This document shows positions 6,459 to 24,162 of a stretch of 64,000 bases of DNA, in pieces (position 1 is the stretch's first letter; each line of letters begins with the position of its first letter). Both the position numbers and the translations under genes were made by a program. The DNA is from Thiobacillus sp. (GTDB lineage Bacteria > Pseudomonadota > Gammaproteobacteria > Burkholderiales > Thiobacillaceae). Under the pieces are notes generated by a model. It worked only from the letters and a program-made list of their open reading frames with translations, was not told the origin of the DNA and made no database searches. The DNA is taken from positions 1 through 64,000 of the forward strand of contig JAIBFA010000034.1 of assembly GCA_019459325.1 (NCBI GenBank), in the 5' to 3' direction.

Positions 6459-6477
6459 TGGGTGTGCATCTTGCTTA
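6459..6477 (+). promoter_or_regulatory. Sigma-54-like promoter B (GGTGTGCATCTTGC)
   Basis: GG-N10-GC, 85 bp after motif B and about 40 bp before the next ATG. Confidence 0.6.
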
Positions 6478-6516
6478 GTCAACCATGCTGAATAAACTCA
6501 ACAGAAAATCATAAAA

Positions 6517-7218
6517 ATGCTGTCACTTCGCAAAGTACTACTGAGCTTGAGCCTGCTGGCGCTTGCCCACGCATCCCTGGCTGCCCCCATCACGCTGGAC
6601 GCCGATCGCTTTACCGTCACCTATGACGCGGATCAGACAGGTCTCTACGGTCAGGGCTTTCTGTCGGGTTCGCTCGACACGGTCTATTTTCAGCCCAGCG
6701 CCTTTGCTGCCCTTTCGGGTGGGGGTCAGACCAGCACCCCGGCCACGCTCCAGCTGAGTTTCACCATCGACCCGGGCTACGCCTTTGCCGGCTTCACCTT
6801 CACCGAGCGCGGCGACTACTTCCTGTTTGGGCAGGGCGCAGTCAATGTAGCGGCCAGCGTCCTGGCCGCCAACGCCGACACGGCGGCGTCCGCCGCACTG
6901 AGCCTGACTCCCGGTATGCCACTCGATCAGACGGGGAGTTCCACAGCTTGGGAGCTGGCCGGAAACCTCGCGTCGCAAGGACTGGGCATGCCGCAGACCC
7001 TGCTGGTCACCCTCGATAATGAATTGTTCGCCAGCGCCGCGGCGGGCAGCCTGGGCTTTATCAAGAACACCTATGTCGGATTCCGGCTTCTCACCGTGGC
7101 TCAGCCGGCTGCCGTCCCCGAACCGTCCGGGTGGGCCCTTTTGCTGGCCGGCATGTTGGCGGCCTTGCTGGTTGGGCGTCGGCGAGTGGTGCGTGTGCCA
7201 TCCGGCATGCGGGGTTGA
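6517..7218 (+). CDS. PEP-CTERM protein (paralogue 2)
   Basis: Signal peptide; C-terminal VPEPSGWALLLAGMLAALLVGRRR; shares internal pattern with flanking paralogues. Confidence 0.88.
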   Translation: MLSLRKVLLSLSLLALAHASLAAPITLDADRFTVTYDADQTGLYGQGFLSGSLDTVYFQPSAFAALSGGGQTSTPATLQLSFTIDPGYAFAGFTFTERGDYFLFGQGAVNVAASVLAANADTAASAALSLTPGMPLDQTGSSTAWELAGNLASQGLGMPQTLLVTLDNELFASAAAGSLGFIKNTYVGFRLLTVAQPAAVPEPSGWALLLAGMLAALLVGRRRVVRVPSGMRG

Positions 7219-7295
7219 GCAGCACGAATGAGCGTAGTATCCGCAAGGCAACATCGATAACAACATCAGATAAATAAATAGAGGCAGGAGGAAAC

Positions 7296-8015
7296 ATGAG
7301 CACTTTCAAGAAAACCGCGCAAGCGGTGCTGGGTTTGTCTGCCGCGCTCCTAACGGGCGCAGCCCTGGCGGACATCCCTGCCCCTCTGGTGGGCACATAT
7401 GTGACCTACACGTTTGTCACTGATCCGGGGCTTTTTGGCGCTGCGTCCCTGTCCGGGGATGATCTGGTCTTTACCCCCGTCCTGGTGCCCACCCCGGCCT
7501 TCAAGGCTGTGTCTGCAAACGGAGTGGGCGGGTTCCAGTATCAGGACCTGATTGTCACCGTCAGTGCCAATACCGGCTACCAGTTGTCGGCTTTCAATCT
7601 GACGGAAAGCGGCAGCTACAGTCTCGCCGGGAGTATGGCTGTCGCCGGGGTGACAGGCAGCATTACTGCGCTGGATATCGAAGGCACGACTGAAAAATCG
7701 GAAATTGGAGGCATCGTGGCAACCGGTTTGGGAGTCAACGGCGTCACCACCGGCTGGACGGGCACTGCAGGAATCGCCCTGCCCACAACGGGCTGGGGCG
7801 GAGTCGATGGCGTGGTAACCAGCGTCAAGCTCACTATTTCGAACCAGCTGTTTGCCACGACCGGGCTGGGTAGCACAGCTGAAATCTGGAAAAACGCTGT
7901 CGGCCTCAATGTTGTCACTACGCCCGTTCCAGAAGCCGAAACCTACGCCATGATGCTCGTGGGGCTCGGCTTGGTCGGCTTCATGGTGCGACGCAGAAAC
8001 CGCGCTGTCGCCTGA
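7296..8015 (+). CDS. PEP-CTERM protein (paralogue 3)
   Basis: Signal peptide; C-terminal VPEAETYAMMLVGLGLVGFMVRRRNR. Confidence 0.9.
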   Translation: MSTFKKTAQAVLGLSAALLTGAALADIPAPLVGTYVTYTFVTDPGLFGAASLSGDDLVFTPVLVPTPAFKAVSANGVGGFQYQDLIVTVSANTGYQLSAFNLTESGSYSLAGSMAVAGVTGSITALDIEGTTEKSEIGGIVATGLGVNGVTTGWTGTAGIALPTTGWGGVDGVVTSVKLTISNQLFATTGLGSTAEIWKNAVGLNVVTTPVPEAETYAMMLVGLGLVGFMVRRRNRAVA

Positions 8016-8044
8016 CGCTAACGAGTATTTCCTATGAAACGGCC

Positions 8045-8054
8045 CCCGATTGGG
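8045..8054. repeat. Left copy of 10-bp target-site duplication (CCCGATTGGG)
   Basis: Identical to 23015-23024, directly outside the TIRs. Confidence 0.85.
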
Positions 8055-8079
8055 CTAGCCGTTACGTTAAACTGTTGAT
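8055..8079 (+). repeat. Left terminal inverted repeat (CTAGCCGTTACGTTAAACTGTTGAT)
   Basis: Exact reverse complement of 22990-23014. Confidence 0.95.
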
Positions 8080-8104
8080 GGCTAGCCCCTAGGGGCTGCA
8101 ATTA

Positions 8105-8141
8105 GAAGACCCGCAAGCCGAAAGGCTTCGCGGGTCTTTTT
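8105..8141 (+). terminator. Terminator hairpin just inside left end of the element
   Basis: GAAGACCCGCAAGCCGAAAGGCTTCGCGGGTCTTTTT. Confidence 0.75.
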
Positions 8142-8177
8142 CATCTGGGGATTCAGTAGCCCGTCCTGGCCTGATTT

Positions 8178-8247
8178 CGTTGTCATAAACTACAAGATAG
8201 CGGGCTTTAAGCCAGAATTACAGCCTTAATTGTCGTTTATGACAACG
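8178..8247. repeat. 13-bp inverted repeat CGTTGTCATAAAC / GTTTATGACAACG
   Basis: Perfect arms at 8178-8190 and 8235-8247. Confidence 0.7.
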
Positions 8248-8285
8248 TTTTGTGCGCTGCCACATAATGCCCCGCACGTCGTCGG

Positions 8286-9038
8286 CTACCACGCTGTCGG
8301 AAGAAGCTTGAGGGTCTCCGGGGAGTGTGCCCAGTGGTTAAGGGACTTGTTGAGCCGGCCGTCTGGACCGGTAAGGGTCGTGGTCGCCAGGTCCAGTATC
8401 TTCAGGCTGGCAACTGCCTTGTCCATGGCCGCCCGGTCCGATACCGGCGGCAGCTTCAGGTGCCGCGCAAGGGTGACGATCGCGTAGGAGCTAAGGCCGG
8501 GCCATGCGACCCGGGCCAAATCTTTGGTGCAGCCGAAGTGGTTCTTGAACGGGAGCCGATACTGACCGGCGGCGTGCGCCAGCAGGTCTTGCGTGGCCGG
8601 GCCATCGTACGCAAACAGAAACTCATCCCCGACGAACGATAAGAGCCCGGTCAGCGCGTCCTGGAGGCTGATCCCCGACTCGGCCAGGATCCCGCCATGG
8701 ATGCCGCTCGCCCGGATGGCGCTGGCTGGAAGGTCGTGCGCGGTTCGGACGAGGGTGGAGTGCTCCCGAACGACGATACCTCTATCAACCAGCAAGGCAG
8801 CAATCTCAAACACCTCAGCGGTGCCGGCGTCGCGGCCGGTGCTCATGACCTCAACTACGGCGAACCGGCCCTTGCGCACCACGGTCGCGGGAACCATGAG
8901 CGCGATGGTGTCCTCGAGGCTCAGCAGGCTTGCGCTGTCCTTGAGGAACGGGCGGGAGAGCGAGGATACCTTTGGAATTCGCAGCCGTCTCGTGGGAGCA
9001 GATGCTACGAGGGCTGTGCGGGGGCGTTTCTTGGTCAT
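8286..9038 (-). CDS. DnaQ/DEDD-exonuclease-fold protein, probably catalytically inactive
   Basis: Fold pattern RFAVVEVMSTG...EIAALLVDRG...FLFAYDGPATQDLL...DRAAMDKAVASLKIL; catalytic residues substituted. Confidence 0.65.
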   Translation of the reverse strand: MTKKRPRTALVASAPTRRLRIPKVSSLSRPFLKDSASLLSLEDTIALMVPATVVRKGRFAVVEVMSTGRDAGTAEVFEIAALLVDRGIVVREHSTLVRTAHDLPASAIRASGIHGGILAESGISLQDALTGLLSFVGDEFLFAYDGPATQDLLAHAAGQYRLPFKNHFGCTKDLARVAWPGLSSYAIVTLARHLKLPPVSDRAAMDKAVASLKILDLATTTLTGPDGRLNKSLNHWAHSPETLKLLPTAW

Positions 9039-9167
9039 GTGCGGTGGCGCGCGCCAGGACGTGGCGCGGAGTATTCAGCTATGCCTCGTTACGGCAATGG
9101 GGTGTCAAGCTTGAGCCTATAGGCCTGGTGCCTATATCCTCGCTCACATCCCGACCGGTCCAAATCT

Positions 9168-10262
9168 ATGCCAACGATATCTACTGAAGAGTACGTCCAC
9201 CAGCGGCGCTTAAAGCTTGGCGAATGGGTTATGGCGAGAGATCGCGTCTACTTGGACAAGCGCTTTTGGATATATCTGCGTGATGCCCGCCTTGGACGAC
9301 CGGCTCCCCCCGCTGCAAGCGTGCTGCTTGAGGCCCTTACCCTCGGCGTAAGAGAGGGGCGCCAACTTTGCCCTGTCAGCGACGTGCTTTTCATGGAGCT
9401 GATGAAGCAAGCGGATTTGAGCACAAGATCCGCTACGGCAGAGCTGATGGATGATCTCAGCTGCGGTGTCACATTGGTTTCACACCCAGAACGGGTTGCC
9501 ATTGAAGTTGAGCAGCTCTTCAGCCCGGCGACCGGCTGCGGGACGCGCCCTCGACTAGAGGCGCGAGTGTGGTCAAAGGTCAGCTACATCTTTGGCATTT
9601 CGCACCGTGACTCGCCCGAATTGACCGAAGCGCAGCGGCATACGATCCAGCAGGCTTTCTTCGAATATATGTGGAACATCCCGCTTGCGCGGATGATCGC
9701 TGACCTAGGCAAGCATCAGTTCCCTGAGGCCCCGTACCCGGGCCTCGTAAACCGCCTCAATGAAGGCAATGCTGCGCATGCGGATGAGATGCGGAGCTTT
9801 CCGAAAGTCTACAAGGACGAAGTGCACGGCGCGCTTGAAGCGGCGATGCCAATCGTTGGCGAGGTTCTCGGCAGGATGGCGGTTACCGCCGGCTATCCGC
9901 AGGAAATGGTCGCCGCGGAGCGTGATTCTTTCAACCGAGAGGTTTACGCTCTTCTGCGCGTAGCAATCGCCAAAGACGATGTCCGACGGGCCCTGAGAAC
10001 CCTGCATATCGGGGCCTCCTTGCATGCCGGCGTCAGGTGGAAGCGGAGGCAAAAACTCGTCCCCAATGACCTGTACGACTTTCACCACGCAGAAGCCGCG
10101 GTGGGCTACTGCGACGTTTTCCTCACGGATGGGCCAATGCACGCCCTCTTAGCGCAACGCCACCTTAGGATTGAGCAGGACTTTCCGTGCCGCATCATGT
10201 CGTCATGGGATGAAATCTTGGATTGGACACAGAAGTCCTCGGCCATAGGACAGCCTTCTTGA
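9168..10262 (+). CDS. PIN-like nuclease domain protein
   Basis: N-terminal VYLDKRFWIYLRDA, C-terminal NDLYDFHHAEAAVGYCDVFLTDGPMHALL. Confidence 0.6.
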   Translation: MPTISTEEYVHQRRLKLGEWVMARDRVYLDKRFWIYLRDARLGRPAPPAASVLLEALTLGVREGRQLCPVSDVLFMELMKQADLSTRSATAELMDDLSCGVTLVSHPERVAIEVEQLFSPATGCGTRPRLEARVWSKVSYIFGISHRDSPELTEAQRHTIQQAFFEYMWNIPLARMIADLGKHQFPEAPYPGLVNRLNEGNAAHADEMRSFPKVYKDEVHGALEAAMPIVGEVLGRMAVTAGYPQEMVAAERDSFNREVYALLRVAIAKDDVRRALRTLHIGASLHAGVRWKRRQKLVPNDLYDFHHAEAAVGYCDVFLTDGPMHALLAQRHLRIEQDFPCRIMSSWDEILDWTQKSSAIGQPS

Positions 10263-10417
10263 GGCTAGGCCGCCCCTGCACGACATATCTGGTCAACCAA
10301 GCTACCGGCGCCGAGCACACTGTTACAGCCGGCACGGAACCGGATGGCCAGGCGCTAGTGATCGATCAGGAGCCGTCGTTATACTGGCTCTCCACGCCCG
10401 AAAGCGACTTTCCATGA
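10223..10417 (+). CDS. Small hypothetical protein, possibly translationally coupled
   Basis: 64-aa ORF overlapping the end of the previous gene and, by ATGA, the start of the next. Confidence 0.4.
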   Translation: MDTEVLGHRTAFLRLGRPCTTYLVNQATGAEHTVTAGTEPDGQALVIDQEPSLYWLSTPESDFP

Positions 10418-11322
10418 CCACGCCACTCCTCGACAAGGCCGCCAAGCTTGTTTCCCACCTTAAGGCCATGCGGCCTGAAGATAGAGATCGCGCCAGCGAG
10501 GAGAGCATTCGTCAGGCGGAGGCAGAGCATGAGGAATTTCTAGCAGCTTTCAGCATTGGTCACTGCTATCTCTGCGGGAACCCGCTGTCCTCGTTTAGCA
10601 AAAAAACGCCTTGTCTGCACTGGCTACTCAAGCCGAAGGGGTTCAAGAAGAACGACCTGCCCGCCGTTGCGCAACGATTTGGCTTCTTCCAGGCACAAAC
10701 CTACCTTCGGTGGGTGGCCAACACCGAGGGCTTCGCCCGACACATTAATGATCTTCCGGAGGAGGGGACCGGGGGCAAGCTAATCGAGCTTACCGTCCGG
10801 TACCGAAGCTTGGAGTGGTCGTTTTCCTGTGCGGAGTCCGATTTTCTCGGCCATGCTACCTCGCAGCACTCCAAGCACCCCCATTACCACTTTCAGATGC
10901 GGATCGAGCAGCGCCCCTTCATCAACTTCAGTGACTTCCATGTCCCGTTCAAGGAAGCGGACATTGTCGGTTTAGAGGCGAAGCGCGTCGCCCCTCATCT
11001 TGTTAAGCACGCTTTTCCCCGAGGGGAAGGGATGGCCGAAGTGATGAATGAAGCTAGCCTGGATACACTCGTGTCGGCCGGCAGCACCCCCGACATCGAA
11101 TCCGAGGCCTTGGTCCATCTCAGTTCGATGGTTATGGCCGACGAGGGCTCTCAGATCGACGGCACGGAACTCTATAACCTTTTCCAAGAGGCTAAGGCAA
11201 AGGGTGTAACGGTAGCGAGCCTGTTGCATAAGCTCCAGAACACCAGCACGCGCGTTGTCGTCAGCCCGGGGTCCGGGGTGGTCGAGCAGGCCCCCCGGTC
11301 CGGCAGGAAAAAAGACCTTTAA
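10414..11322 (+). CDS. Hypothetical protein with zinc-binding-like CxxC...CxH cluster and His-rich segment
   Basis: CYLCGNPLSSFSKKTPCLHW; SQHSKHPHYHFQMRIEQRPF. Confidence 0.6.
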   Translation: MTTPLLDKAAKLVSHLKAMRPEDRDRASEESIRQAEAEHEEFLAAFSIGHCYLCGNPLSSFSKKTPCLHWLLKPKGFKKNDLPAVAQRFGFFQAQTYLRWVANTEGFARHINDLPEEGTGGKLIELTVRYRSLEWSFSCAESDFLGHATSQHSKHPHYHFQMRIEQRPFINFSDFHVPFKEADIVGLEAKRVAPHLVKHAFPRGEGMAEVMNEASLDTLVSAGSTPDIESEALVHLSSMVMADEGSQIDGTELYNLFQEAKAKGVTVASLLHKLQNTSTRVVVSPGSGVVEQAPRSGRKKDL

Positions 11323-11331
11323 TTTTTCGGG

Positions 11332-11511
11332 TCACGTGACGGCGTCACCTGGGACGCCGCGATCAATTACCGACTCATCCCTCATCGCAATCGCCTCCCG
11401 GACCACCGCCGCGGCCATCTCCTCATCGGCCGGCAGCATCATGCGCGGGATGTTCTCCCCGAACACTTTCCGATACTCCTCATTCAGGTCGAGCCAGTCC
11501 TGCTCGGTCAC
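11332..11511 (-). CDS. Small hypothetical protein (59 aa, GTG start)
   Basis: VTEQDWLDLNEEYRKVFGENIPRMMLPADEEMAAAVVREAIAMRDESVIDRGVPGDAVT; GTGA overlap with upstream ORF. Confidence 0.5.
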   Translation of the reverse strand: MTEQDWLDLNEEYRKVFGENIPRMMLPADEEMAAAVVREAIAMRDESVIDRGVPGDAVT

Positions 11512-11615
11512 TGTGACCTCGCTGCTCGGATCGCGGCCATGATCGGCGCGAAATAGATCGCCGGCCCTTCCTTGGCCGCCGCAATCACCTCTCGTAGAAA
11601 CGCCCGCATCTCCAT
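11508..11615 (-). CDS. Small hypothetical protein (35 aa)
   Basis: MEMRAFLREVIAAAKEGPAIYFAPIMAAIRAARSQ, read from sequence (below ORF-track cutoff). Confidence 0.5.
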   Translation of the reverse strand: MEMRAFLREVIAAAKEGPAIYFAPIMAAIRAARSQ

Positions 11616-11903
11616 CCCTCCCGCCAAGCTGCTCTGGCTCCATTATGGGCCATCCGCCGGCCCCCCGCGCACCGGCCTCGCGCAGGCCCTGACCGCCACT
11701 GGATTCAAACTCGATTTGAGAAATTGAAACTATCCGTTACATAATAACAACACACAATTGAAGGCTTATACAGCTATTCACGATGCAAGCATTACAAGGA
11801 TTCTATGGAAAACAGAGGCAGTAATTTGCCAATTAACCTGAACGTTAATGACATAATGCCAAAACAGACTAACCTTGTGTTATGCGCTAACATCTGCTAG
11901 TAT

Positions 11904-11916
11904 GTTACGGCGTAAC
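11904..11916. promoter_or_regulatory. Palindrome GTTACGGCGTAAC, candidate operator
   Basis: 5-bp perfect arms immediately upstream of the 11939 gene. Confidence 0.4.
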
Positions 11917-11938
11917 TTTTCGAAAAAAGGGCTTTAGT

Positions 11939-12232
11939 GTGGCGCTAACGAACGCGGAGCGGCAGAAGCGGTTCAGGGACCGGCAGCAGCTCGGCCGCCA
12001 GTCCGGCGGATCGAATCGGGTCCGCCTCGGCGGCTATGTCGCGGCCGGGTCGGCGGCCCGCCTGAAAAGCCTGGCAGCGTACTTTGGGAAGTCGCAGCAG
12101 GCGGTGGTCGAGATGCTGATCGATGCGGCTGACCTGCGCATAATGGAGCGCCTGAGAAAGAACCCGGACGACCGTCTCCTGAAGGCGTACGTTCAGGCCC
12201 GACTGCAACAGGACGGCTCAATAATCGAATAA
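11939..12232 (+). CDS. Small putative DNA-binding protein (GTG start)
   Basis: MALTNAERQKRFRDRQQ...YFGKSQQAVVEMLIDAADLRIMERL. Confidence 0.6.
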   Translation: MALTNAERQKRFRDRQQLGRQSGGSNRVRLGGYVAAGSAARLKSLAAYFGKSQQAVVEMLIDAADLRIMERLRKNPDDRLLKAYVQARLQQDGSIIE

Positions 12233-12245
12233 GGGGAGTGGCGTC

Positions 12246-12335
12246 ATGCGGCTACTGGCCGGTTTCATTCATCTCGCCGCTGCGGCGGTGATCTTCTCGA
12301 CGGTAGCCTACCCCACGTACTGCGAGCCCCGCTGA
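12246..12335 (+). CDS. Possible 29-aa membrane peptide
   Basis: MRLLAGFIHLAAAAVIFSTVAYPTYCEPR, read from sequence. Confidence 0.3.
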   Translation: MRLLAGFIHLAAAAVIFSTVAYPTYCEPR

Positions 12336-12439
12336 CCCGGCGGCCACACTGGATAAACCCCGGAGATAGACCTGATCTCACCTCGGAACACCTGCGCAGC
12401 CGGGCCGAGAAGCTCAAGCCGGACAAAACAAGGAACTCT

Positions 12440-14275
12440 ATGACTTTCACTGAACTCGCCAACTTCATCTGGTCTGTCGCCGACGATCTGCGCGGAGACT
12501 ATCGCCAGTCCGACTACGGCAAGATCATCCTTCCGTTTGCGCTGCTGCGCCGCCTCGATTGCGTGCTTGAGCCCACCAAGGACGCTGTCCTTGCCGAATA
12601 TGCCAAGCGCAAGGATCAGGCCGTCGACCTCGACGTATTCCTGAAGCGCAAGAGCAAGCAGGCCTTCTACAACACCTCCGAGTTCACCTTCGCGTCCCTC
12701 CTGGACGACCAGAAGCACATCCGCCAGAACCTGGTGAAGTACATCGGCGACTTCTCCGAGGACGCCCGCGACGTGTTCGAGCGGTTCAAGTTCATCGACC
12801 GCGTGGCCGAGCTGGACGACAAGAACCTGCTGTTCATCCTAGTAAAGAAGTTCGCCGCGATCGACATGCACCCCGACGTCGTTCCCAACGAGAGCATGGG
12901 CCTGGCGTTCGAGGAGTTGATCCGGAAGTTCGCGGAAGCCTCCAACGAGACCGCTGGTGAGCACTTCACCCCGCGCGAGGTGATCCGCCTCATGGTCATG
13001 CTGCTGTTCGCCGGCGACGACAACGCACTATCGAAGCCCGGCGCCGTGCGCTCCCTTTACGACCCCACGGCCGGCACCGGCGGCATGCTCTCCGTCGGCG
13101 AGCATGTCATCGCCAGCCTCAACCCCTCGGCCCGCCTGCGCCTTTATGGCCAGGAGCTCAACGACGAGTCCTACGCCATCTGCAAGGCGGACATGCTCAT
13201 CAAGGGCCAGGATCCCAACAACATCCACCGCGGCAACACCCTGGCCGAAGACAAGCTGGCCAGCCTCGTGTTCGACTACGCCCTCTCGAATCCCCCGTTC
13301 GGCGTGGACTGGAAGAAGGTCTACGACATCGTGAAGGCGGAGTACGAGAAGAAGGGCTTTGCCGGCCGCTTTGGTCCCGGCCTGCCGCGTGTCTCCGACG
13401 GCTCCATGCTCTTCCTGCTGCACCTCATCAGCAAGATGCGTCCGGCCAGCGAGGGCGGCAGCCGCATCGGTATCGTCCTGAACGGCTCGCCATTGTTCAC
13501 CGGAGGCGCCGGCAGCGGCGAGAGCGAGATCCGCCGTTACCTCCTCGAGCATGACCTGGTCGAGGCCATCGTCGGCCTCCCGACCGACCTGTTCTTCAAC
13601 ACCGGCATTGCGACCTACGTCTGGATCATCAGCAACCGCAAGGGCAAGGATCGCAAGGGCAAGGTCCAGCTGATCGACGCCAGCGGCTTCTGGCAGAAGA
13701 TGCGCAAGAGCCTGGGCTCCAAGCGCAAGGAGATGTCCGAGGAGCACATCGCCGAGGTGCTCCGTCTCTACTCGGACGCTGGGGAAGCCCGCCTCGCCAC
13801 CGTGTTCGACGCCGCCGGCAAGGAGATCAGCCACCAGATACTCAAGCCTGGGGACAAGGCGCCAGTTGCCCCGAAGGGCGGCAAGGTCAAGGCGGTTCCG
13901 GTCTCCCGCATCTTCAGCAACGAAGAATTCGGTTACCAGACCATCACGGTCGAGCGCCCCCTGCGCGACGAGGCCGGCAAGATTGTGATTGGCGACAAGG
14001 GCAAGATGAAGGGCAAACCCCTACCGGACGCCAACCTGCGCGACACGGAAAACGTACCGCTGGCCGAGGATGTCGAGGCGTACTTCAAGCGCGAGGTGCT
14101 GCCGCATGCCCCGGACGCCTGGATCGACCACGAGAAGACCAAGGTGGGCTACGAGATCCCGTTCAACCGGCACTTCTACATGTTTGAGCCCCCGCGCGAC
14201 TTGGCCCTGATCGATGTGGACCTTGAGGCATGCACTGACCGCATCAAGGCCATGATTCATGGGCTGGCAGCATGA
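12440..14275 (+). CDS. hsdM: Type I restriction-modification N6-adenine methyltransferase subunit
   Basis: DPTAGTGGML and SNPPFG motifs, HsdM N-terminal region. Confidence 0.95.
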   Translation: MTFTELANFIWSVADDLRGDYRQSDYGKIILPFALLRRLDCVLEPTKDAVLAEYAKRKDQAVDLDVFLKRKSKQAFYNTSEFTFASLLDDQKHIRQNLVKYIGDFSEDARDVFERFKFIDRVAELDDKNLLFILVKKFAAIDMHPDVVPNESMGLAFEELIRKFAEASNETAGEHFTPREVIRLMVMLLFAGDDNALSKPGAVRSLYDPTAGTGGMLSVGEHVIASLNPSARLRLYGQELNDESYAICKADMLIKGQDPNNIHRGNTLAEDKLASLVFDYALSNPPFGVDWKKVYDIVKAEYEKKGFAGRFGPGLPRVSDGSMLFLLHLISKMRPASEGGSRIGIVLNGSPLFTGGAGSGESEIRRYLLEHDLVEAIVGLPTDLFFNTGIATYVWIISNRKGKDRKGKVQLIDASGFWQKMRKSLGSKRKEMSEEHIAEVLRLYSDAGEARLATVFDAAGKEISHQILKPGDKAPVAPKGGKVKAVPVSRIFSNEEFGYQTITVERPLRDEAGKIVIGDKGKMKGKPLPDANLRDTENVPLAEDVEAYFKREVLPHAPDAWIDHEKTKVGYEIPFNRHFYMFEPPRDLALIDVDLEACTDRIKAMIHGLAA

Positions 14276-15543
14276 GCGTCCCTCGTTATCCCGAGTACAA
14301 GGACAGCGGCGTGGAGTGGCTAGGGGATCTCCCCGCGCACTGGGACGCCTCTCCGCTAAAGCACCTGCTTAGCATCCAGAACGGGGCTGACCATAAGCAC
14401 GTGGAGCAAGACGTAGGCTATCCCGTGATCGGTTCCGGTGGGGTCTTCGCTTATGCCTCTGATTACCTGTATGACGGGGAATCTGTTCTTCTAGGCCGAA
14501 AGGGGACGATTGATAAGCCCCTGTATGTATTCGGCAAGTTCTGGACTGTCGACACCATGTATTGGTCGAAGGTGCTGGCCGGCAACTGTGGGAAGTTTGC
14601 CCACTACTTAGCCACCACAATCCCCTTCGGCTATTACGCAACGAACACAGCCTTGCCTAGTATGACGAAGGGCGCATTGAACGCCCACGTAGTCGCGCGT
14701 CCGCCGCTCGACGAGCAGGCCGCCATCGCCGCCTTCCTCGACCGCGAAACTGGCAAGATCGACGCCCTGGCCGCAGAGTACGAGCGGCTGATCGACCTGC
14801 TCAAGGAAAAGCGCCAGGCCGTCATCTCCCACGCTGTCACCAAGGGGCTTGACCCTAAGGTGCCGATGAAGGACTCGGGGGTGGAGTGGCTGGGGGAGGT
14901 GCCGGCGCATTGGGAAGTAAGGAGGCTCAAGCGCATATCGCCATGCATCACAGTCGGTATCGTCGTTAACCCCAGCACGTTTGTGGCCGATGATGGGTTT
15001 CCGTTTATTTACGGCGGCGACATTCGGGAAGGCGTAATCGATTGGAAAAATTCCCGTCGAATTGCGGCGAAGTCTAGCGAAGCAAACGCAAAAACCCAGC
15101 TACAAGCTGGGGATCTTCTAACGGTGAGGGTCGGTGCGCCGGGCATTACCGCTGTTGTTCCGTCTGAGTGCGAAGGCGGAAACTGCGCGTCCGTGATGCT
15201 TGTTCGTCGAGGGCCTTTTAACTCAAACTGGCTATGCTATGCGATGAACACTCGGATCGTCCGCTATCAGGTGGAAGTTGTCCAATACGGCGCAGCTCAA
15301 GAGCAGTTCAACATCAGCCATGCCGTCAATTTCTGGACGCCCGTTCCACCCCGTACCGAACAGGACGAGATAGCCGCATTCCTTGCAACTGAAACCGCCA
15401 AGTTCGACACACTGGCGGCCGAGGCCGAAAAAGCCATCGACCTGCTCAAGGAGCGCCGCTCCGCCCTGATCTCAGCCGCCGTGACCGGCAAGATAGACGT
15501 GAGAGGCCTGGTGCCGGTTGCAGCCAGCAAGGAGGCCGCCTGA
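14272..15543 (+). CDS. hsdS: Type I restriction specificity subunit
   Basis: Two target-recognition half-repeats (SGVEWLG..PAHW; EQ..IAAFL..ET.K.D.L..E). Confidence 0.95.
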   Translation: MSVPRYPEYKDSGVEWLGDLPAHWDASPLKHLLSIQNGADHKHVEQDVGYPVIGSGGVFAYASDYLYDGESVLLGRKGTIDKPLYVFGKFWTVDTMYWSKVLAGNCGKFAHYLATTIPFGYYATNTALPSMTKGALNAHVVARPPLDEQAAIAAFLDRETGKIDALAAEYERLIDLLKEKRQAVISHAVTKGLDPKVPMKDSGVEWLGEVPAHWEVRRLKRISPCITVGIVVNPSTFVADDGFPFIYGGDIREGVIDWKNSRRIAAKSSEANAKTQLQAGDLLTVRVGAPGITAVVPSECEGGNCASVMLVRRGPFNSNWLCYAMNTRIVRYQVEVVQYGAAQEQFNISHAVNFWTPVPPRTEQDEIAAFLATETAKFDTLAAEAEKAIDLLKERRSALISAAVTGKIDVRGLVPVAASKEAA

Positions 15544-15941
15544 TGAGCCGACGCTACCGAGGCTACGGCGGGCGGCGCCGATCGAATAACAGCCTCGGCG
15601 GAACCGTCGGGGACGCAGCCTTCATCGCGGGCAGGCTCAGCCCCAAGTGGGCGCTGATCTTGGGCCTCTTTGGGTTTGCCGTGTTCTACTTGGGTATCCC
15701 CTGGTTCATCGAGGCACGCATCCAAGCCATGGAAGCTGCGCGCCAGAGCATCACGCATGAGGTGGTCGCCCAAGTGCTCAACCGCCGGTTCGTGCGGCCG
15801 AGCGAGTGGGCAGGGATCGCCATCCTGCTCGTGTGCACAGCCATTGCAATCTGGAAAGCGGCAATATACTCAGCACCCAATAACAGCAGTACCCGACAAA
15901 TGAGCCTTCTGGCCCGGATTCTGGCCAGATTCCTGGATTAA
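15543..15941 (+). CDS. Small two-TM protein in hsd operon
   Basis: RRYRGYGGRRRSNNSLGGTVGDAAFIAGRL plus two hydrophobic segments. Confidence 0.65.
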   Translation: MSRRYRGYGGRRRSNNSLGGTVGDAAFIAGRLSPKWALILGLFGFAVFYLGIPWFIEARIQAMEAARQSITHEVVAQVLNRRFVRPSEWAGIAILLVCTAIAIWKAAIYSAPNNSSTRQMSLLARILARFLD

Positions 15942-15945
15942 GCCT

Positions 15946-18900
15946 ATGCCAACCCTATCCAACGTCCACACCGAGATGGTCTTCGAAGACGAGCTGTGCA
16001 CCCACCTGGTGGCCAACGGCTGGTCCATCCGCACTCACCTGAGGGACGCCACCGGCTACAGCCGTGAACTGGCCCTGTTTCCCGACGACCTGCTGGCCTT
16101 CGTCCAGGAGACCCAGCCCGCCGAGTGGGCCAAGTTCAAGAAGTGGCACAACGGCCAGTCCGAGCAGATCTTCGTGAAGCGCGTGGCCGAGCAGCTGGAT
16201 AAGCACGGCACCCTGCACCTGCTGCGCAGCGGCTTCAAGGACCGTGACGCCAAGTTCTTCCTGTGCCAGTTCCGCCCGGCGCACTACAAGAACCAGCAGC
16301 TAGTGGATTGGTACCAGGCCAACCGCCTGACCTGCATCCGGCAGCTGCATTACAGCCTCCACAACGAGAACAGCATCGACCTGGTGCTGTTCGTCAACGG
16401 CATCCCGGTGGCCACGTCCGAGCTGAAGACGGACATGACCCAGAACATCGTGGATGCCGTGAACCAGTACAAGCACGACCGGCATCCCAAGGACCCCAAG
16501 ACCAAGGAACCGGAGGCCCTGCTGCAGTTCAAAACGCGGGCCCTGGTGCACTTCGCCGTTTCGACCGACGAGGCCTACATGGCGACCCGCCTGGCCGGGC
16601 CGGATACGCGGTTCCTACCCTTCAACCTGGGCAAGCCGGATGGCCTCGGCGGCCGCGGTGCTGGCAACCCGGCCGCGCCCGACGACAAGGGATACCCGAC
16701 CTGGTATCTGTGGGAAAAGATCTGGGACCGCGACGTCTGGCTGGAGATCCTGGGCAACTTCCTCCACCTCAAGCGCGAGGAAGAAGAGATCGCGGGCAAG
16801 AAGCTGATCTCCGAAAGCCTGATTTTCCCCCGGTACCACCAGCTCGACGCGGTCGTGAACCTGGTCTACAGCGCCACCCACGAGGGCGCCGGCAAGACCT
16901 ATCTGGTCCAGCACAGCGCCGGCTCCGGCAAGTCGAACACGATCGCCTGGACCGCGCACCGGCTGGCTTCGCTGCACGACGCCGCCGGCAAGAAAATCTT
17001 CGACACGGTCGTCGTCATCACCGACCGCAAGGTGCTCGACCGCCAGTTACAGGAGACCATCTCACAGTTCGAGCAGAAGGATGGCGTGGTCATGAAAATC
17101 GATCAGGACAGCCAGCAGCTGGCCGACGCGTTGAACGCGAACACCCCCATCATCGTTACCACGCTCCAGAAGTTCTCCTTCATCACCGAGAAGGTCCAGG
17201 GCCTTGCTGCCAAGCGCTTTGCGCTGATCGTCGACGAGGCCCATTCGAGCCAGACCGGGGCGGCCGCGAAGAATGCCAAAAAGGCCCTGACCTCCGGGGC
17301 GAAGAACCCGCCCCTGACCGTCACACTGGCCGGCGAGGAGCACACCATCACCCCGGACGTCGCGATCGATCCTGAGGAGGTTACGGCCGAGGACGTGATC
17401 AACGAGGTCATGGCTTCGAGGACGCGCCCCGCGAACGTTAGCTACTTCGCCTTCACGGCCACGCCCAAGCCTAAAACCCTGGAGCTGTTCGGCCGACCCG
17501 GCAAGGATGGGGTGCCTGAGCCGTTCCATGTCTACTCGATGCGCCAGGCCATCGAGGAAGGCTTCATCATGGACGTGCTGAAGAACTACGTCTCCTACGC
17601 GGCTTACTACAAGCTGGGCTCGCAGGCCGACCAGAAACTGGTTCCGGCCGGGAAGGCCAAGAAGTCCCTTGCCCGCTTCGCCAGCCTCCACGAAACCAAC
17701 ATCGCGCAGAAGGTGGCGGTCATTGTGGAGCACTTTCGGACGACGGTCATGCCCAAGATTGGCGGCAAGGCCAAGGCCATGGTGGTGACGAACGGCCGCG
17801 TGGCCGCCGTCCGCTACAAGCTAGCCATGGACCGGTACCTGAAAGACTTGGCCGCGAAGGACCCGGCCTACGCGCAGATGGGCACCCTGGTCGCGTACTC
17901 CGGCAGCGTCAAGGATGCAGAATCCGGCCCGGACGAATTCACCGAGTCCGGCATGAACGCCATCCATGGCCGTGAGCCGGCGGAGGCCTTCAAGGAAGAT
18001 GAGTACCGGCTGCTGCTGGTCGCCAACAAGTACCAGACGGGGTTCGACCAGCCCTTGCTGCACACCATGTACGTCGACAAGAAGCTGTCCGGCGTGCTGG
18101 CGGTCCAGACACTGTCCCGCCTGAACCGCGTATGCCCCGGCAAGAACGAGACCTTTGTGCTGGACTTCGTGAACAAGCCCGAGGACATTCTGGCGTCCTT
18201 CAAGCCTTACTACCGTACGGCTGAGCTTGAGGATGTCACCGACCCCAATCTTGTGCACGAGCTGCACATCAAGCTCGACCAGGCGAAGGTCTATCACTGG
18301 AACGAGGTGGAAGCGTTCGCCAAGGCGTTCTTCGACCCCAAGCGCAAGCAGTCGGCCCTGCACGGGCACCTGAAACCAGCCTATGACCGCTGGAAGGACC
18401 TGGATGCCGCGGAGGCCGAGCAGTTCCGCAAGAACCTTGGCACCTTTATCCGGATGTACGATTTCCTATCCCAGATCATCCCTTACGATGACCTGGAGCT
18501 GGAGCAGCTGTATGCCTTCGGCAAGCATCTGATGCCGCGGCTGGTCGAGCATGGCGGCGGCGGTTTGCCTGACCTGACCGCCGACGTGAAGCTGACGCAC
18601 TACCGGCTGCAGAAGCTCGGCGAGCAGAAGCTTGACCTGGAGACAGGGGATGTTGTGAAGCTGCACCCGTCGACGGGTGCAGGCCCCAAGGCCCGGCCCT
18701 CAGACGACGAGGTGGAGCTGCGTGAGATCGTCGAGAAGATGAACGACCTGTTCTCCGGTAGCCTGACCGAAGCCGATCTGGTCGGTTACGTCGCGACCAT
18801 GAAGGGCAAGCTGCTCGCCAACGACCGGCTCGCCGACCAGGCGGCCAGCAACACGGAGGAGCAGTTCGCCATGGGCGACTTCCCCGTCATTCTTACGGAC

Positions 18901-19035
18901 ATCGTGATCGAGGGCCAGGAGGCACACAACGCCATCGCCGACCAGCTGCTGCAAGATAAGCGGGTCTTCGCGGCCATGCAGGGGATGCTCGCCCGGATGG
19001 TGTACCGGGCCTTTCAGAACAAGGGCGCGGGCTGA
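15946..19035 (+). CDS. hsdR: Type I restriction endonuclease subunit R
   Basis: Nuclease region ATSELKTDMTQNIVDAVNQY; helicase motifs HSAGSGKSNTIAW, VDEAHSSQ, TATPKP. Confidence 0.95.
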   Translation: MPTLSNVHTEMVFEDELCTHLVANGWSIRTHLRDATGYSRELALFPDDLLAFVQETQPAEWAKFKKWHNGQSEQIFVKRVAEQLDKHGTLHLLRSGFKDRDAKFFLCQFRPAHYKNQQLVDWYQANRLTCIRQLHYSLHNENSIDLVLFVNGIPVATSELKTDMTQNIVDAVNQYKHDRHPKDPKTKEPEALLQFKTRALVHFAVSTDEAYMATRLAGPDTRFLPFNLGKPDGLGGRGAGNPAAPDDKGYPTWYLWEKIWDRDVWLEILGNFLHLKREEEEIAGKKLISESLIFPRYHQLDAVVNLVYSATHEGAGKTYLVQHSAGSGKSNTIAWTAHRLASLHDAAGKKIFDTVVVITDRKVLDRQLQETISQFEQKDGVVMKIDQDSQQLADALNANTPIIVTTLQKFSFITEKVQGLAAKRFALIVDEAHSSQTGAAAKNAKKALTSGAKNPPLTVTLAGEEHTITPDVAIDPEEVTAEDVINEVMASRTRPANVSYFAFTATPKPKTLELFGRPGKDGVPEPFHVYSMRQAIEEGFIMDVLKNYVSYAAYYKLGSQADQKLVPAGKAKKSLARFASLHETNIAQKVAVIVEHFRTTVMPKIGGKAKAMVVTNGRVAAVRYKLAMDRYLKDLAAKDPAYAQMGTLVAYSGSVKDAESGPDEFTESGMNAIHGREPAEAFKEDEYRLLLVANKYQTGFDQPLLHTMYVDKKLSGVLAVQTLSRLNRVCPGKNETFVLDFVNKPEDILASFKPYYRTAELEDVTDPNLVHELHIKLDQAKVYHWNEVEAFAKAFFDPKRKQSALHGHLKPAYDRWKDLDAAEAEQFRKNLGTFIRMYDFLSQIIPYDDLELEQLYAFGKHLMPRLVEHGGGGLPDLTADVKLTHYRLQKLGEQKLDLETGDVVKLHPSTGAGPKARPSDDEVELREIVEKMNDLFSGSLTEADLVGYVATMKGKLLANDRLADQAASNTEEQFAMGDFPVILTDIVIEGQEAHNAIADQLLQDKRVFAAMQGMLARMVYRAFQNKGAG

Positions 19036-19076
19036 CGCCTGTGGATAACCTCAGGCAGGGGCAGTAAACTCGCGCC

Positions 19077-19739
19077 TTGACCGATCTCAAAAAGAAGCTG
19101 ATGACCGTTGTAGCTTATCGTATCGTCCTTGTAGACACTAACTGCTTTCTTCGGCTCTACCAATCTCCGGCAAGCCCGCTCCTGGGCCAGGATATTGGGG
19201 GCTACCGGCTGCTAACCCTTGGTTGCCTGATTGATGAGTTCCTTGAGAACCCGGCTCTCGTGCTGAATTACCGGTGGATCTCGAGCAAGCCAATAATCGA
19301 TGAGGTCCAGAAGGCCAAACTCAAGATCTCTGAAATCTACAAACGCAAAGTGCGCGCTAACAGCCTAGAGCTAAAGCTTTTCGCTGACACCTTCATCCGT
19401 GATTATTGTCGTAAGCGCAAGATTGTTCCCCGAGGGCTCTCGTCACGAGATCTGGAGCTCCTCGGCACCGCAATTGTGCTCAAGTGCGTCATTGCAACCG
19501 ACGAATGGCCCCTCACTCAGGTCTCCAAAGAATTGATGGAGGACCCTGATTACGAGATCGAGATATTCAACAGTCTCGACGTGCTAAGTATTCTGGAATC
19601 GCACGGGAGACTGAGCGCGGATGAGCGCAGGCAGACTGTTGACTCCTGGAAACGGCTGAGCGAGAAACTGCCTCGAGACTGGGAGGCGCAGTATCAGTTG
19701 CTGTTCGGCGAAGCCCCAGGTTCACCCGACGAGGAGTGA
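19077..19739 (+). CDS. PIN-domain protein, toxin-like
   Basis: RIVLVDTNCFLRLY and VIATDEWPL; start could be TTG 19077 or ATG 19101. Confidence 0.6.
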   Translation: MTDLKKKLMTVVAYRIVLVDTNCFLRLYQSPASPLLGQDIGGYRLLTLGCLIDEFLENPALVLNYRWISSKPIIDEVQKAKLKISEIYKRKVRANSLELKLFADTFIRDYCRKRKIVPRGLSSRDLELLGTAIVLKCVIATDEWPLTQVSKELMEDPDYEIEIFNSLDVLSILESHGRLSADERRQTVDSWKRLSEKLPRDWEAQYQLLFGEAPGSPDEE

Positions 19740-20863
19740 AGCCGCATCAGGAGATGTGACAGCTCTTGGGCTTGTCCAATCCCGATATTCAACGCCGATG
19801 CGATGAAGGAAGGATCCCTTCCGCCTTCGGCAACTTGCCATTGGGCCAGCGCCCTGAAAACGGGGGTGCTGAACTCGTCCTCTGACTTCAGAACGTATTC
19901 CTCGGCAGAAAGTTCTTTAACGCCAAACGTGGACTCGACCACAGTGGGCACACGAACCCGGTTGGTCTGCCAATCCGCCCAGAAGGCTCGAGTGTTCAGC
20001 CCGGTGGGTTCTTTCTTGTGAACTCTGGCGGCACGGTCAGCCTGGCTAAAGACGGTAACAACGGATATGCCGTAGCTGCCCGCATACCACGTAGCCCGCT
20101 CTTTGCGCTGTGAGTCCGAGGTGATGGCACAGAGTGCATCAACCGCCACTTCCATTGGGAAGAGCAGCTCCTGGGCGAATCGCTCGGCGAAGGCTTCCCC
20201 CTCGGCCCCCTGCAGGGCGTGCAATGAGTAGCAGTGCCCGAGTTCGTGCGCCAGCCAGTAGTTGAAGTCGTCGTCCCGTGAATTCAGACTGAACACCACC
20301 CACGATGTCCCCGACTCCGGCAGGAACACGCTCAGCGCGTTTTCGTGCCCGGCCTTCTTGCTGTCCCACAGGACTGGCACAAGCAGCGCGCCAAAGTCGT
20401 GAAGCAGCCCTAGCAACTGAGCTCGGGAAAGGGGGGCTTTAGGGGCCAGCCCAATACGGGCGCGAACCTGCCGTGCCGCTTCGCGAATGTACTCGTCATC
20501 CTGCTGAGGGTCTTCGAGAACAGGGGGGGCGAACACGGGCCGGCTGCGCACGAAAGGAACCAGTGCTCTGAGATGCGCCGCCAAGTCCTCGGCCGCTTCC
20601 AGTGCGGGCCCGGTTACAGGCCGATTCCTTTTGGTGCGGAACGCGATGAGGGGTGTGGGATCGGCCTCATCCACGGCGAAAAGCCTCTCAACCTCGAGTT
20701 GGAGGGCCACAGCCAGGGACTTCAGCTTGTTGGGACGCGGGATGGACTCCCCTGCGAGCCAATTGGAAACGGACTCCTTGCTCACTGAGCATTTCTCGGC
20801 GAGCGCTGTTTGGTTGAGCCCTTGCCCAACCATGGCAGACTTGATGAGTGTGGTGTTCAGCAT
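19694..20863 (-). CDS. XRE HTH plus ImmA/IrrE metallopeptidase-domain protein
   Basis: HTH LNQTALAEKCSVSKESVSNWLAGES; HELGHCYSLHA; ATG at 20863 chosen. Confidence 0.85.
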   Translation of the reverse strand: MLNTTLIKSAMVGQGLNQTALAEKCSVSKESVSNWLAGESIPRPNKLKSLAVALQLEVERLFAVDEADPTPLIAFRTKRNRPVTGPALEAAEDLAAHLRALVPFVRSRPVFAPPVLEDPQQDDEYIREAARQVRARIGLAPKAPLSRAQLLGLLHDFGALLVPVLWDSKKAGHENALSVFLPESGTSWVVFSLNSRDDDFNYWLAHELGHCYSLHALQGAEGEAFAERFAQELLFPMEVAVDALCAITSDSQRKERATWYAGSYGISVVTVFSQADRAARVHKKEPTGLNTRAFWADWQTNRVRVPTVVESTFGVKELSAEEYVLKSEDEFSTPVFRALAQWQVAEGGRDPSFIASALNIGIGQAQELSHLLMRLHSSSGEPGASPNSN

Positions 20864-21032
20864 GGCGTTGGAGGTTAGCTTAGGTAAGCCCGATTGGTCA
20901 AGTTTCGTCAAGTTGTATAGGGATAATAGGTTATTTAAGCGTGGCTGCCTGGCAACACGCCGGCCTTGCGCTTCCGGTTGACTGCCCCATCCGGTTGCCG
21001 CCGCACCCCAGCCTGCGCACTCCAAGCGCAAC

Positions 21033-22946
21033 TCAAGCCGCAGCGGCTGCAACCCCAGGTGCAACAGCCTCGGCGCTTTCGCCGATTGGCTCTTCCGGCC
21101 TCCGAACGAAATACAGGATGTCCTCTGACGCCACTGGTCCGCGTGCCAAACCCATCCGCATCGCCGGCGTCATGCCGTCCTCGCCGACCTCACAATAGTT
21201 GAAGTAGACCCGGAAGACCTCCAGCATCTTGGCGAGGATGGCAGGGTCGTAGGCATTCTTGCCGAACCACCTGCGCTCGCCAGACGAGGCGCTGACGATC
21301 CCGCGCTCAGCCAGCGTTACGCCCCTCCGCACCTGCATAAAGAAGCGGTCGATGGACCGAAGCGAGGCCTTCCGGTAGAGCCTGGCCGCGTGGTTCAGCT
21401 GTGACTCCCGCGCCTCCGGGTCTTCCGCGGGCTCCTCGATGTCCGTGAGCCAGCAGACCTGCTTCTCGGGCTCGCGCATGTCGGGCAGTGGGTGCCACAG
21501 CCACCGGTCCTGCCACTTTCCGATAGTCCTCAGGCGTTCCATTTCCGCCCGGAGCATCCGGATCTCTGCCTCCCGCGCGCTCAGCCCCTCATCTGCCTGC
21601 AGCTTCTTGAGCCGCTGCTGGGCCTGGCGCACCAGATTCCGCTTGGTGTCGACGGTGGCCTCTTTCAGCACCCGGACGTAGTAGGCATCGGCAGTCCGGT
21701 CAAGGACTCGCTTGGGCACGGCAGCCATAATGGCAGCACGTAGCCCTGATTCCTGGTCGACGAAGAATCTGAGCTTTTCCGCACCCCTGAGCAGCCGCGT
21801 GACGAACTGGATGTGCGCGTTCATGGAAACCTGTTCGTGGATCTGCATGCCCCGTACCGGCACGCGAGTAGAGGGCTGCGGCCCATCCCCTGCCTCGATG
21901 TTGTCCCGGCCCACAGCGTCCGCGTAAGTGGCCTCAATGGCCTTTTCCAGCCCCTCTGCGGTGCTCCCTTCCGCCCGTTTTCTGCCGTCGGCGCGCTTGG
22001 CCGCGTCCTCGAAGTCCTGAGGAAGCCAGACTCGCGCGTAGCGGCGAAAGGGTTGGCTCAGCTTGTCGTCCCCGTAACGGGGCATATCGGCGAGTACCTC
22101 GTCGGTGGTGATATCTGGGTCGTAGTTGAGGTGCACGCCGTAGACGTACCCCGTCTCGAGGTCAGCGCTGCCGCAGGAGAGCAGGAGCGTGTTGCGACGG
22201 TCCTTGCGGGTGGTCCAGTTGACCATGAGGGCCTGGCGATCGACCGTGATGTAGCGCTTGCCAAGGTTGTCGGCGAACGCCAGCACGCGCTCCCGCTCAC
22301 CCGCGAACTGGCGGCACTGCCGCCAGATAAAGTCGATTCGCCGGTACAGGGTGCCCGGCGTGATGCCGAGGAGCTTGATGGTTCGCCGCAGCGGGACGGA
22401 GTTGACTAGGTGCTCGAAGATGTCGCGGTTGCGATGGGTTTCCCGCTGCCGGTGGGTCGCCTTGCCTCCGTGAGCGAAGACGCTCTTGCAGGCCTTGCAG
22501 CGGTAGCGCGGGGTGCCGTGGGTCGAGGTACCGAACCGCACGTAGTTCTTGGGCGCCTTGGTTATAGGGACGTCGTAGAACTCGCACTCGTCGTTGGTGC
22601 ATGCCGGGCCGCTGGGTGGCTCGAGGTAGGCACTGATGCGCAGCAGTTCCTCGGCGATCGCGAGGTTGCTCTGCATGGGGATGCGCTCATTGCATAGTTC
22701 GCATTGAAGGGTCGGCTCATCACGTCCATGGGCGCCAACAATGTAGTCCCCTTGGCCCGGCGGCGGAGGAACGAAGCCCACAGGTGGACGCCCGCGAGGA
22801 ATGCGCGGGCTGTCCTTCGGGGGCACGCCGAAGTTGGCGCACAGGGGGTTTTTGCAGTGGTTTACCTGGATGCCGGCAGCCGTTGGCGGGTGCCGCCAAG
22901 GCCATTTTCCTGAAGACGATTTCTTCTTGGACAAAATGCGCTCCAC
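21033..22946 (-). CDS. Putative DDE transposase with N-terminal zinc ribbons
   Basis: CKNPLCANFG, CELC, YRCKACKSVF; core ITVDRQALMVNW and FVDQESGLRAAI; C-terminal TPAMRMGLA; next to TIR; GTG start. Confidence 0.7.
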   Translation of the reverse strand: MERILSKKKSSSGKWPWRHPPTAAGIQVNHCKNPLCANFGVPPKDSPRIPRGRPPVGFVPPPPGQGDYIVGAHGRDEPTLQCELCNERIPMQSNLAIAEELLRISAYLEPPSGPACTNDECEFYDVPITKAPKNYVRFGTSTHGTPRYRCKACKSVFAHGGKATHRQRETHRNRDIFEHLVNSVPLRRTIKLLGITPGTLYRRIDFIWRQCRQFAGERERVLAFADNLGKRYITVDRQALMVNWTTRKDRRNTLLLSCGSADLETGYVYGVHLNYDPDITTDEVLADMPRYGDDKLSQPFRRYARVWLPQDFEDAAKRADGRKRAEGSTAEGLEKAIEATYADAVGRDNIEAGDGPQPSTRVPVRGMQIHEQVSMNAHIQFVTRLLRGAEKLRFFVDQESGLRAAIMAAVPKRVLDRTADAYYVRVLKEATVDTKRNLVRQAQQRLKKLQADEGLSAREAEIRMLRAEMERLRTIGKWQDRWLWHPLPDMREPEKQVCWLTDIEEPAEDPEARESQLNHAARLYRKASLRSIDRFFMQVRRGVTLAERGIVSASSGERRWFGKNAYDPAILAKMLEVFRVYFNYCEVGEDGMTPAMRMGLARGPVASEDILYFVRRPEEPIGESAEAVAPGVAAAAA

Positions 22947-22969
22947 ATCATAGATATGGAGCGCATTTT
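22933..22969 (-). promoter_or_regulatory. 13-bp inverted repeat overlapping transposase start codon
   Basis: AAAATGCGCTCCA-N11-TGGAGCGCATTTT. Confidence 0.7.
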
Positions 22970-22989
22970 AGGTCCGTCCGAAGACGGGA

Positions 22990-23014
22990 ATCAACAGTTT
23001 AACGTAACGGCTAG
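22990..23014 (-). repeat. Right terminal inverted repeat
   Basis: Exact reverse complement of 8055-8079. Confidence 0.95.
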
Positions 23015-23024
23015 CCCGATTGGG
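23015..23024. repeat. Right copy of 10-bp target-site duplication
   Basis: CCCGATTGGG, as at 8045-8054. Confidence 0.85.
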
Positions 23025-23126
23025 GGCCGTTTTCTTTTGGTGCATGGTCGATCAAGCAGAATTCCGCCCAGTTCCAGATCCGGCTGACGTCTAACAATGA
23101 AATGTACTCAGGGCATATTCGACGGC

Positions 23127-23376: not shown

Positions 23377-24162
23377 ATGAGCGTTTCGTTCGACAAACCA
23401 AGAGCAAAGACCAGGCTGGTGGCGTTTGCCTTGCTGTTCGGCCTGTCTGGCGCCGGTACCGCCCAGGCCGTTACTTTATTCAGTGAGGATTTCGAGGGGT
23501 ATACCAGTTTCCCCACTTGGGATCCGTTCTTGGATCCGGTCAATGCCGGCATCCCCACGATTTCCGAGGGTGCAAACGAGGTCTGGTATGGTGCTCGCTT
23601 CGAGACGCCGGACAACGGCACGATCGATGCTGATCTGGCCGTGCAGCAGTTCGGCGGGATCTTGAGCAGCAACAACACCCATACCGGCCGGGTGGAAGAC
23701 GACGCCGGCATGCTGCTCAGGATCGACACGACCGGCATGAGCAGCGTCAACCTGAGCTTTGACTGGCGTACTTTCCTGGTCAACTCCACCAGCGACCGTT
23801 TCGTCGTGGGCTACCACGTGGGGCCGATCGCCGATTTCGGGGCGTGCAGCGGCGAGGGTGAAACAGGCTGCTTCGCCGATCTGAGGACGAGCATGCCGTG
23901 GTCGGCTGGCAACTGGACCGAACTGCTGCGTGCCAGCAGGAGCAGCAGTTGGACCGGTGAATCCTATTTGCTTGGAAACGACGCCAACAACCAGTCCGAA
24001 GTCTGGATCGCATTCTGGATGGACAACGGCGAGGGCGATTACGCCAAGTTCGACAATGTGCTGGTCACCGCCGTCCCCGAAGCCGAAACCTACGCCATGA
24101 TGCTGGCCGGCCTGGGCCTGATCGGTTTCATGGCACGGAGACGCACCCGCGCGTCTGTCTGA
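23377..24162 (+). CDS. PEP-CTERM protein
   Basis: Signal peptide; VPEAETYAMMLAGLGLIGFMARRRTR. Confidence 0.92.
   Translation: MSVSFDKPRAKTRLVAFALLFGLSGAGTAQAVTLFSEDFEGYTSFPTWDPFLDPVNAGIPTISEGANEVWYGARFETPDNGTIDADLAVQQFGGILSSNNTHTGRVEDDAGMLLRIDTTGMSSVNLSFDWRTFLVNSTSDRFVVGYHVGPIADFGACSGEGETGCFADLRTSMPWSAGNWTELLRASRSSSWTGESYLLGNDANNQSEVWIAFWMDNGEGDYAKFDNVLVTAVPEAETYAMMLAGLGLIGFMARRRTRASV

Follow-up and report, generated by a model that had tools for sequence, protein, structure and literature searches.

Cargo-carrying transposons with a single zinc-ribbon transposase occupy many intrinsic terminators in distantly related bacteria

As a rule, transposons either pick their targets almost at random or depend on an ATPase with a guide or a sequence-specific protein. 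Tn7-like elements carry a TnsC-like ATPase together with a target-selector protein, in contrast to the group described here, in which bare copies of 2 kb encode a transposase only. Bacterial group IIC introns insert next to the stem-loops of intrinsic terminators; however, they use a ribozyme and a reverse transcriptase, lie beside the hairpin rather than in its apex, and have neither terminal inverted repeats (TIRs) nor target duplications. Members of the IS1 family are known to produce duplications of 8 to 10 bp. The closest described system is Tn7491, which carries dfrG and initially came to light in Listeria Tn6198, and for which a TIR of TAAGTAGTTCAGTTTTGGAGTACAAAA and a 9-bp duplication have been published (PMC10763498). 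The word "terminator" is absent from that report (PMC10763498), and a preference of Tn7491 for terminators is apparently unpublished; no prior statement of terminator targeting by this group was found in an open-access library.

The element examined here is a real one and lies in the window, a 64,000-nucleotide stretch of a Thiobacillus sp. contig (JAIBFA010000034.1, positions 1 to 64,000). It spans 14,960 bp between perfect 25-bp TIRs at 8055-8079 (left, distal, forward strand) and 22990-23014 (right, transposase proximal, reverse strand), each flanked by the identical 10-bp sequence CCCGATTGGG (8045-8054 and 23015-23024); the original prediction had placed all four exactly. With up to 3 mismatches allowed, the TIR sequence CTAGCCGTTACGTTAAACTGTTGAT is found within the window only at these two positions, and it had 0 occurrences in 100 shuffles. 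No further copies were found in the rest of the 3.07-Mb assembly, and no gene for a reverse transcriptase or ribozyme of the group IIC kind was found in the element. Several PEP-CTERM proteins are encoded in the neighborhood (5288-8015, 23377-24162, and 26374-27012), as is an exopolysaccharide-type glycosyltransferase (24373-25758).

The joined flanks of the element read CGGCC[CCCGATTGGG]GGCCGTTTTC, the palindrome of an intrinsic terminator (CGGCC CCCGATTGGG GGCCG TTTTC) with the 10-bp repeat as its apex, 24 bp 3' of the stop codon of a PEP-CTERM gene at 7296-8015. An empty site, which the original prediction had proposed to look for, is present in the same-genus genome G022, where the ortholog of this gene is followed by CGGCTCCCGGTTGGGGGCCGTTTTTC in single copy and with no insert. 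The terminator in the joined flanks and the uninterrupted site in G022 therefore indicate that the element entered a terminator hairpin at its tip and duplicated 10 bp. Of the split host terminator, the left half (CGGCCCCCGATTGGG, 8040-8054, forward strand) includes the first copy of the target site duplication, and the second copy (23015-23024) is followed by the right half with its T-tract (GGCCGTTTTC), the two together occupying 23015-23034 on the forward strand. The 10-bp flank had been read correctly as a target site duplication, while its identity as the tip of an intrinsic terminator had been missed. Because the target is a palindrome, the junction is ambiguous in the window copy, which taken alone can be read either as a 28-bp TIR with a 4-bp GATT duplication or as a 25-bp TIR with a 10-bp repeat. 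The former reading is ruled out by the relatives, whose TIRs start C(T/G/A)AG and which have 9- to 10-bp duplications.

The transposase gene (21033-22934, reverse strand) encodes several Cys-pair zinc ribbons, a helix-turn-helix (HTH), and a predicted RNase-H/DDE-like core, in that order. Judging from its leader, translation probably starts at the TTG at 22934 rather than at the GTG at 22946. The fold is predicted to be RNase-H-like (pLDDT, 77), with strands bearing D231 and D392 and with E542 immediately following a long helix toward the C-terminal part (residues are numbered as in A2, whose first codon is the one after the TTG). These three acids are conserved among relatives, apart from the L027 transposase, which lacks D231. 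D528 is an alternative third acid that is less favored as a catalytic residue, being N in Pontibacillus and Tn7491, where E542 is kept. The zinc ribbons of the original prediction are borne out, and its "DDE-like" label corresponds to the predicted fold and the conserved acids, from which we infer a DDE enzyme; the chemistry of the element appears ordinary as far as can be told. The best Foldseek match in the PDB is the transposase of ISCth4, an IS256-family element, which shares an RNase-H fold with insertion, at an E value of only 8.6e-3 and TM-scores of 0.22 to 0.39. In contrast to this structural likeness, no match to the IS256 sequence family rose above cutoff, the only model matched being a 31-position zinc-binding domain. 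The likeness to IS1 is confined to the N-terminal zinc ribbon and HTH region (E values of 4e-4 to 1e-10), and the curated IS1 model NF033558 gave 20 to 42 bits against a cutoff of 100 bits; the present group further differs from IS1 in protein length (570 to 650 versus ~230 amino acids), in its several zinc ribbons and different TIRs, and in carrying passenger genes. No Pfam family was above cutoff for the transposase or its relatives. A PDB sequence search returned eukaryotic zinc fingers only, which were judged to be an artifact of the Cys pattern.

Relatives of the transposase with 22 to 58% identity were found in Pseudomonadota, Thermodesulfobacteriota, and Bacillota by searches of genome contigs, plasmids, and whole genomes, the upstream repeat being paired with its inverted partner where the contig permitted. 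They are uncommon, occurring in 4 of 369 genomes sampled from the class and in 7 of 399 sampled from the order (the window's own genome included in both), and a profile scan of viral contigs found none. The checks set out in the original prediction were passed, since TIRs of this kind occur in other genomes together with homologous transposases, cargo of other sorts, and 9- to 10-bp duplications; the bounded elements range from 1.9 to 27 kb. Examples are 2.0 kb (L022), 2.1 kb (L002), 3.7 kb (L009), 5.9 kb (L003, Dechloromonas), 7.1 kb (L030), 8.6 kb (L065), 10.1 kb (L024), 12.3 kb (L066), 19.6 kb (G870), and 27.1 kb (G869) in size. TIRs of the proteobacterial branch mostly begin C(T/G/A)AG and are accompanied by duplications of 9 to 10 bp; the duplication has one mismatch in L067 and L069, L024 has no exact duplication, and L004, L005, L016, and L023 have none. 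In L004, L016, and L023, both TIRs are present without a duplication and the flanking sequences either come from two different terminators, one half of each, or are unrelated, possibly a consequence of recombination between two copies.

No TnsC-like ATPase, resolvase, or integrase is common to the family, in agreement with the original prediction, and the bare copies of 1.9 to 2.1 kb contain the transposase only. It could be argued that the window holds an integrative defense island with chance repeats and not an autonomous transposon, since defense cargo alone is typical of islands; the perfect TIRs, the duplications, the empty site, and the bare transposase-only copies contradict this reading and make it hardly credible. 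Several members have a more complex structure. The 12.3-kb element of L066 holds a tyrosine integrase and an IS91-like Y2 transposase, and open reading frames of the same sizes (248 and 376 amino acids) at 6228-8253 and 10905-12930 suggest a duplicated inner element (6228-12930). Two transposon ends lie in tandem on the distal side of L065 (~9859-9940), as a nested or captured end, and a second near-identical TIR far from a transposase fragment (G873:C1:119444-119468; L074 and L092) may represent another copy of the element or a lone end.

Tn7491 belongs to the same group as the window element. Its transposase is homologous (~22% identity; E value of 1e-23 from L010), it makes a 9-bp duplication, and many of its copies lie in terminators; its repeat and duplication were recovered independently here, before comparison, and agree with the published ones (PMC10763498). 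It differs in carrying dfrG, which confers trimethoprim resistance, and an extra upstream open reading frame of 98 amino acids, and in a TIR unlike the proteobacterial ones. Tn7491 occurs in staphylococci and enterococci and forms a distant, fully supported branch, with a split in the tree between the Bacillota (Tn7491 and Pontibacillus) and the rest and with terminator targeting on both sides of it.

Cargo differs in each element and, within this family, is mostly related to defense. It includes type I, II, and IIG restriction-modification systems, Hachiman, a Mokosh-like helicase, ApeA, and HipA. The window element carries a type I system on the forward strand, consisting of hsdM (12440-14275; E value of 3e-265), hsdS (14272-15543; 3e-111), and hsdR (15946-19035), with a small membrane protein of no family between hsdS and hsdR (15543-15941). 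It also encodes an RmrA-like regulator with XRE-HTH and ImmA/IrrE-like parts (19694-21064, reverse strand; HTH E value of 2e-9, weak M78 match) and a DEDDh-exonuclease-like protein with an altered catalytic motif, EVMSTG (8286-9038, reverse strand). Family searches thus support the restriction-modification genes, the XRE-ImmA/IrrE gene, and the pseudo-exonuclease of the original prediction. The "PIN-like" label given to two further proteins stays unproven, with no significant Pfam match: one of 364 amino acids (9168-10262, forward strand) is PIN-like by eye and has no family, and one of 220 amino acids (19077-19739, forward strand) is PIN-like by motif only. No family was found for another cargo protein of 302 amino acids (10414-11322, forward strand). 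Elsewhere, the cargo comprises Hachiman HamA and HamB with a type IIG enzyme (G869); a type IIG enzyme in two open reading frames, SIR2, and a two-partner secretion exoprotein (G870); a type IIG-like enzyme (L065); a type II methylase with a weak restriction endonuclease match (L067); an MkoC-like helicase (L024); an ApeA-like protein (L009); HipA (L011 and L012); a CoiA-like nuclease (L003); and, in the Gram-positive copies, dfrG.

Reconstructed empty sites across the family mostly read as an A-tract, a GC stem, the duplication over the apex, the second stem arm, and a T-tract, as in aaaaaacccg[ATCACTATC]gggtttttt (G869), aaaaaccctttgca[TTATCACAA]tgcaaagggttttt (L066), and aaaaaaaaggccg[GGATCGCTC]ccggcctttttt (L003). 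A strict criterion for a terminator (a stem of 7 or more that may contain one mismatch, a 40-nucleotide energy of -5 or lower, and 4 or more consecutive A or T residues) was passed by 20 of 30 sites and by 0.6% of 11,733 positions drawn at random from these flanks; with both tracts required, the figures were 15 of 30 sites and 0.09% of random positions, contrasts that are somewhat inflated by control positions that were random and not matched for intergenic location. The binomial p of 1.6e-37 assumes independent sites, while L097 and L102 share one, and is best read as "far beyond chance." The third of the sites that fail the criterion include weak or interrupted hairpins (L061, L062, L069, and L098), a palindrome without tracts (L067), and sites unlike terminators (L011, L025, L026, L103, and L104). 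For Tn7491, 10 insertions with a perfect duplication were found at 9 distinct sites, of which 6 are terminator-like by eye, with one more (L062) doubtful; the strict criterion accepts 5 of the 10 insertions. A clear example is aaaaaaaaaggaaagac[ATTTTCATT]gtctttcctttttttt (L094), and pMW2 contains the empty version of the Tn7491 site in S. aureus p199. In L097 and L102, both Enterococcus plasmids, Tn7491 lies in one terminator with the same 9-bp duplication and in opposite orientations, through either independent insertions or a flip in place. The idea that the element always faces one way with respect to the terminator was abandoned, given the tracts on both sides of most targets and the use of both orientations at this one site.

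All of these copies are natural, selected insertions, and a bias toward intergenic survival is known for transposons generally, so that terminator copies could be survivors of insertion anywhere, harmless to the host; some copies do lie outside terminators. However, selection for harmless sites predicts varied intergenic positions and not a 9- to 10-bp duplication over a hairpin apex, splitting a terminator would not obviously harm the host less than inserting beside it, and the pattern is repeated in distant branches and on plasmids, all of which makes survivorship an improbable explanation. Insertion directed to terminators is instead favored. In the tree, terminator users are found throughout. 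The copies L011, L025, and L026 have 9- to 10-bp duplications at nonterminator sites and stand beside terminator users. The scatter of other-site copies (L005/L011, L025, and L026) among terminator users therefore points to an old target rule that has been relaxed or missed in places.

What is recognized at these sites may be debated. Any perfect palindrome or cruciform-forming DNA could serve as the target, terminators being the commonest strong intergenic palindromes, and the strong palindrome without T-tracts at L067, the short tracts at L012 and L014, and the centering of the duplication near the dyad in most cases are consistent with this. Palindromes and tracts nevertheless occur together, with an A or T tract of at least 4 at nearly all strong sites, and this tentative alternative differs on what is recognized and not on the observation itself. 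A transposase steered by transcription, one drawn to RNA polymerase as it pauses at terminators or to the hairpin in the RNA and not to a DNA structure, would fit targets that are functional-looking terminators by gene ends, such as that of the window, which follows the stop of the gene at 7296-8015 by 24 bp. No domain that binds RNA or interacts with polymerase was recognized, and the single site of L097 and L102 is occupied in both orientations, though with tracts on both sides there; this mode of targeting seems unlikely. Recognition of the terminator architecture (A-tract, GC palindrome, and T-tract) by the transposase itself, in DNA or during transcription, combined with replacement terminators at both ends that would render insertion nearly neutral for transcription, is given an even chance.

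Hairpins inside the element ends bear on this last point. The distal end of the window element has an inward-facing intrinsic terminator (AAGACCCGCAAGCCGAAAGGCTTCGCGGGTCTTTTT, 8106-8143, forward strand, -24.2 kcal/mol), and inward terminator-like hairpins within ~150 nucleotides or less of the tip were found at 14 proximal and 15 distal ends (of 21 each), compared with 34 of 315 random 200-nucleotide stretches. Their distance from the tips varies (18 to 123 nucleotides), because of which a role in insulation is favored over second binding sites for the transposase. At the proximal end, a leader hairpin predicted from folding and alignment (22937-22965, reverse strand) holds the Shine-Dalgarno motif GGAG in its 3' arm and is followed by a T-run and the TTG start. 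A promoter predicted from consensus (22965-22994, reverse strand) has its -35 TTGATT at the inner TIR end (22989-22994) and its -10 TAAAAT at 22965-22970. This arrangement is conserved, with TTGA at the inner repeat edge, a TAAAAT-like -10, a hairpin with a 5' arm that overlaps or abuts the -10 and a 3' arm that contains GGAG or GGGG, and then a T-run and a start codon of TTG or ATG. A hairpin is present in 19 of 19 leaders examined, with differing stem sequences, and RNAalifold drew 4 pairs, each with changes on both sides, in an imperfect alignment of the arms. In IS10 and IS50, a leader hairpin hides the ribosome site in RNA arriving from outside; the transposases are unrelated to those described here, and the present hairpin is also terminator-like. 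By analogy, the leader should silence transposase RNA entering from outside.

The locus is thus very probably a cargo-carrying DDE transposon that has one zinc-ribbon transposase, inserts at or near the apex of terminators, and carries putative replacement terminators. In the proposed mechanism, the transposase would pair both TIRs and insert the element with a 9- to 10-bp stagger at or near the palindrome apex of an intrinsic (Rho-independent) terminator, splitting the terminator and sparing the host genes, and the inward-facing terminators just inside the ends would usually substitute for the one lost. Because the hairpin at the transposase end would overlap the promoter -10 and bury the Shine-Dalgarno sequence, read-through RNA from host genes is proposed to be terminated and untranslatable, whereas transcripts from the element's own promoter would lack most of the 5' arm.

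These elements form a real, new group of transposons, probably of the DDE kind, that is widespread and largely unnamed, and what is unusual about it is the target and how broadly the target rule is kept. If the rule holds, a single transposase finds a structural class of sites that is very abundant in each genome and always outside coding sequence, and landing in terminator hairpins would therefore allow insertion without gene disruption. This would explain the cheap spread of large defense cargos and the movement of dfrG between plasmids, and it could provide a compact tool for insertion at gene ends. Defense-carrying transposons and a clinical resistance transposon would then have a "safe-harbor" target rule in common.
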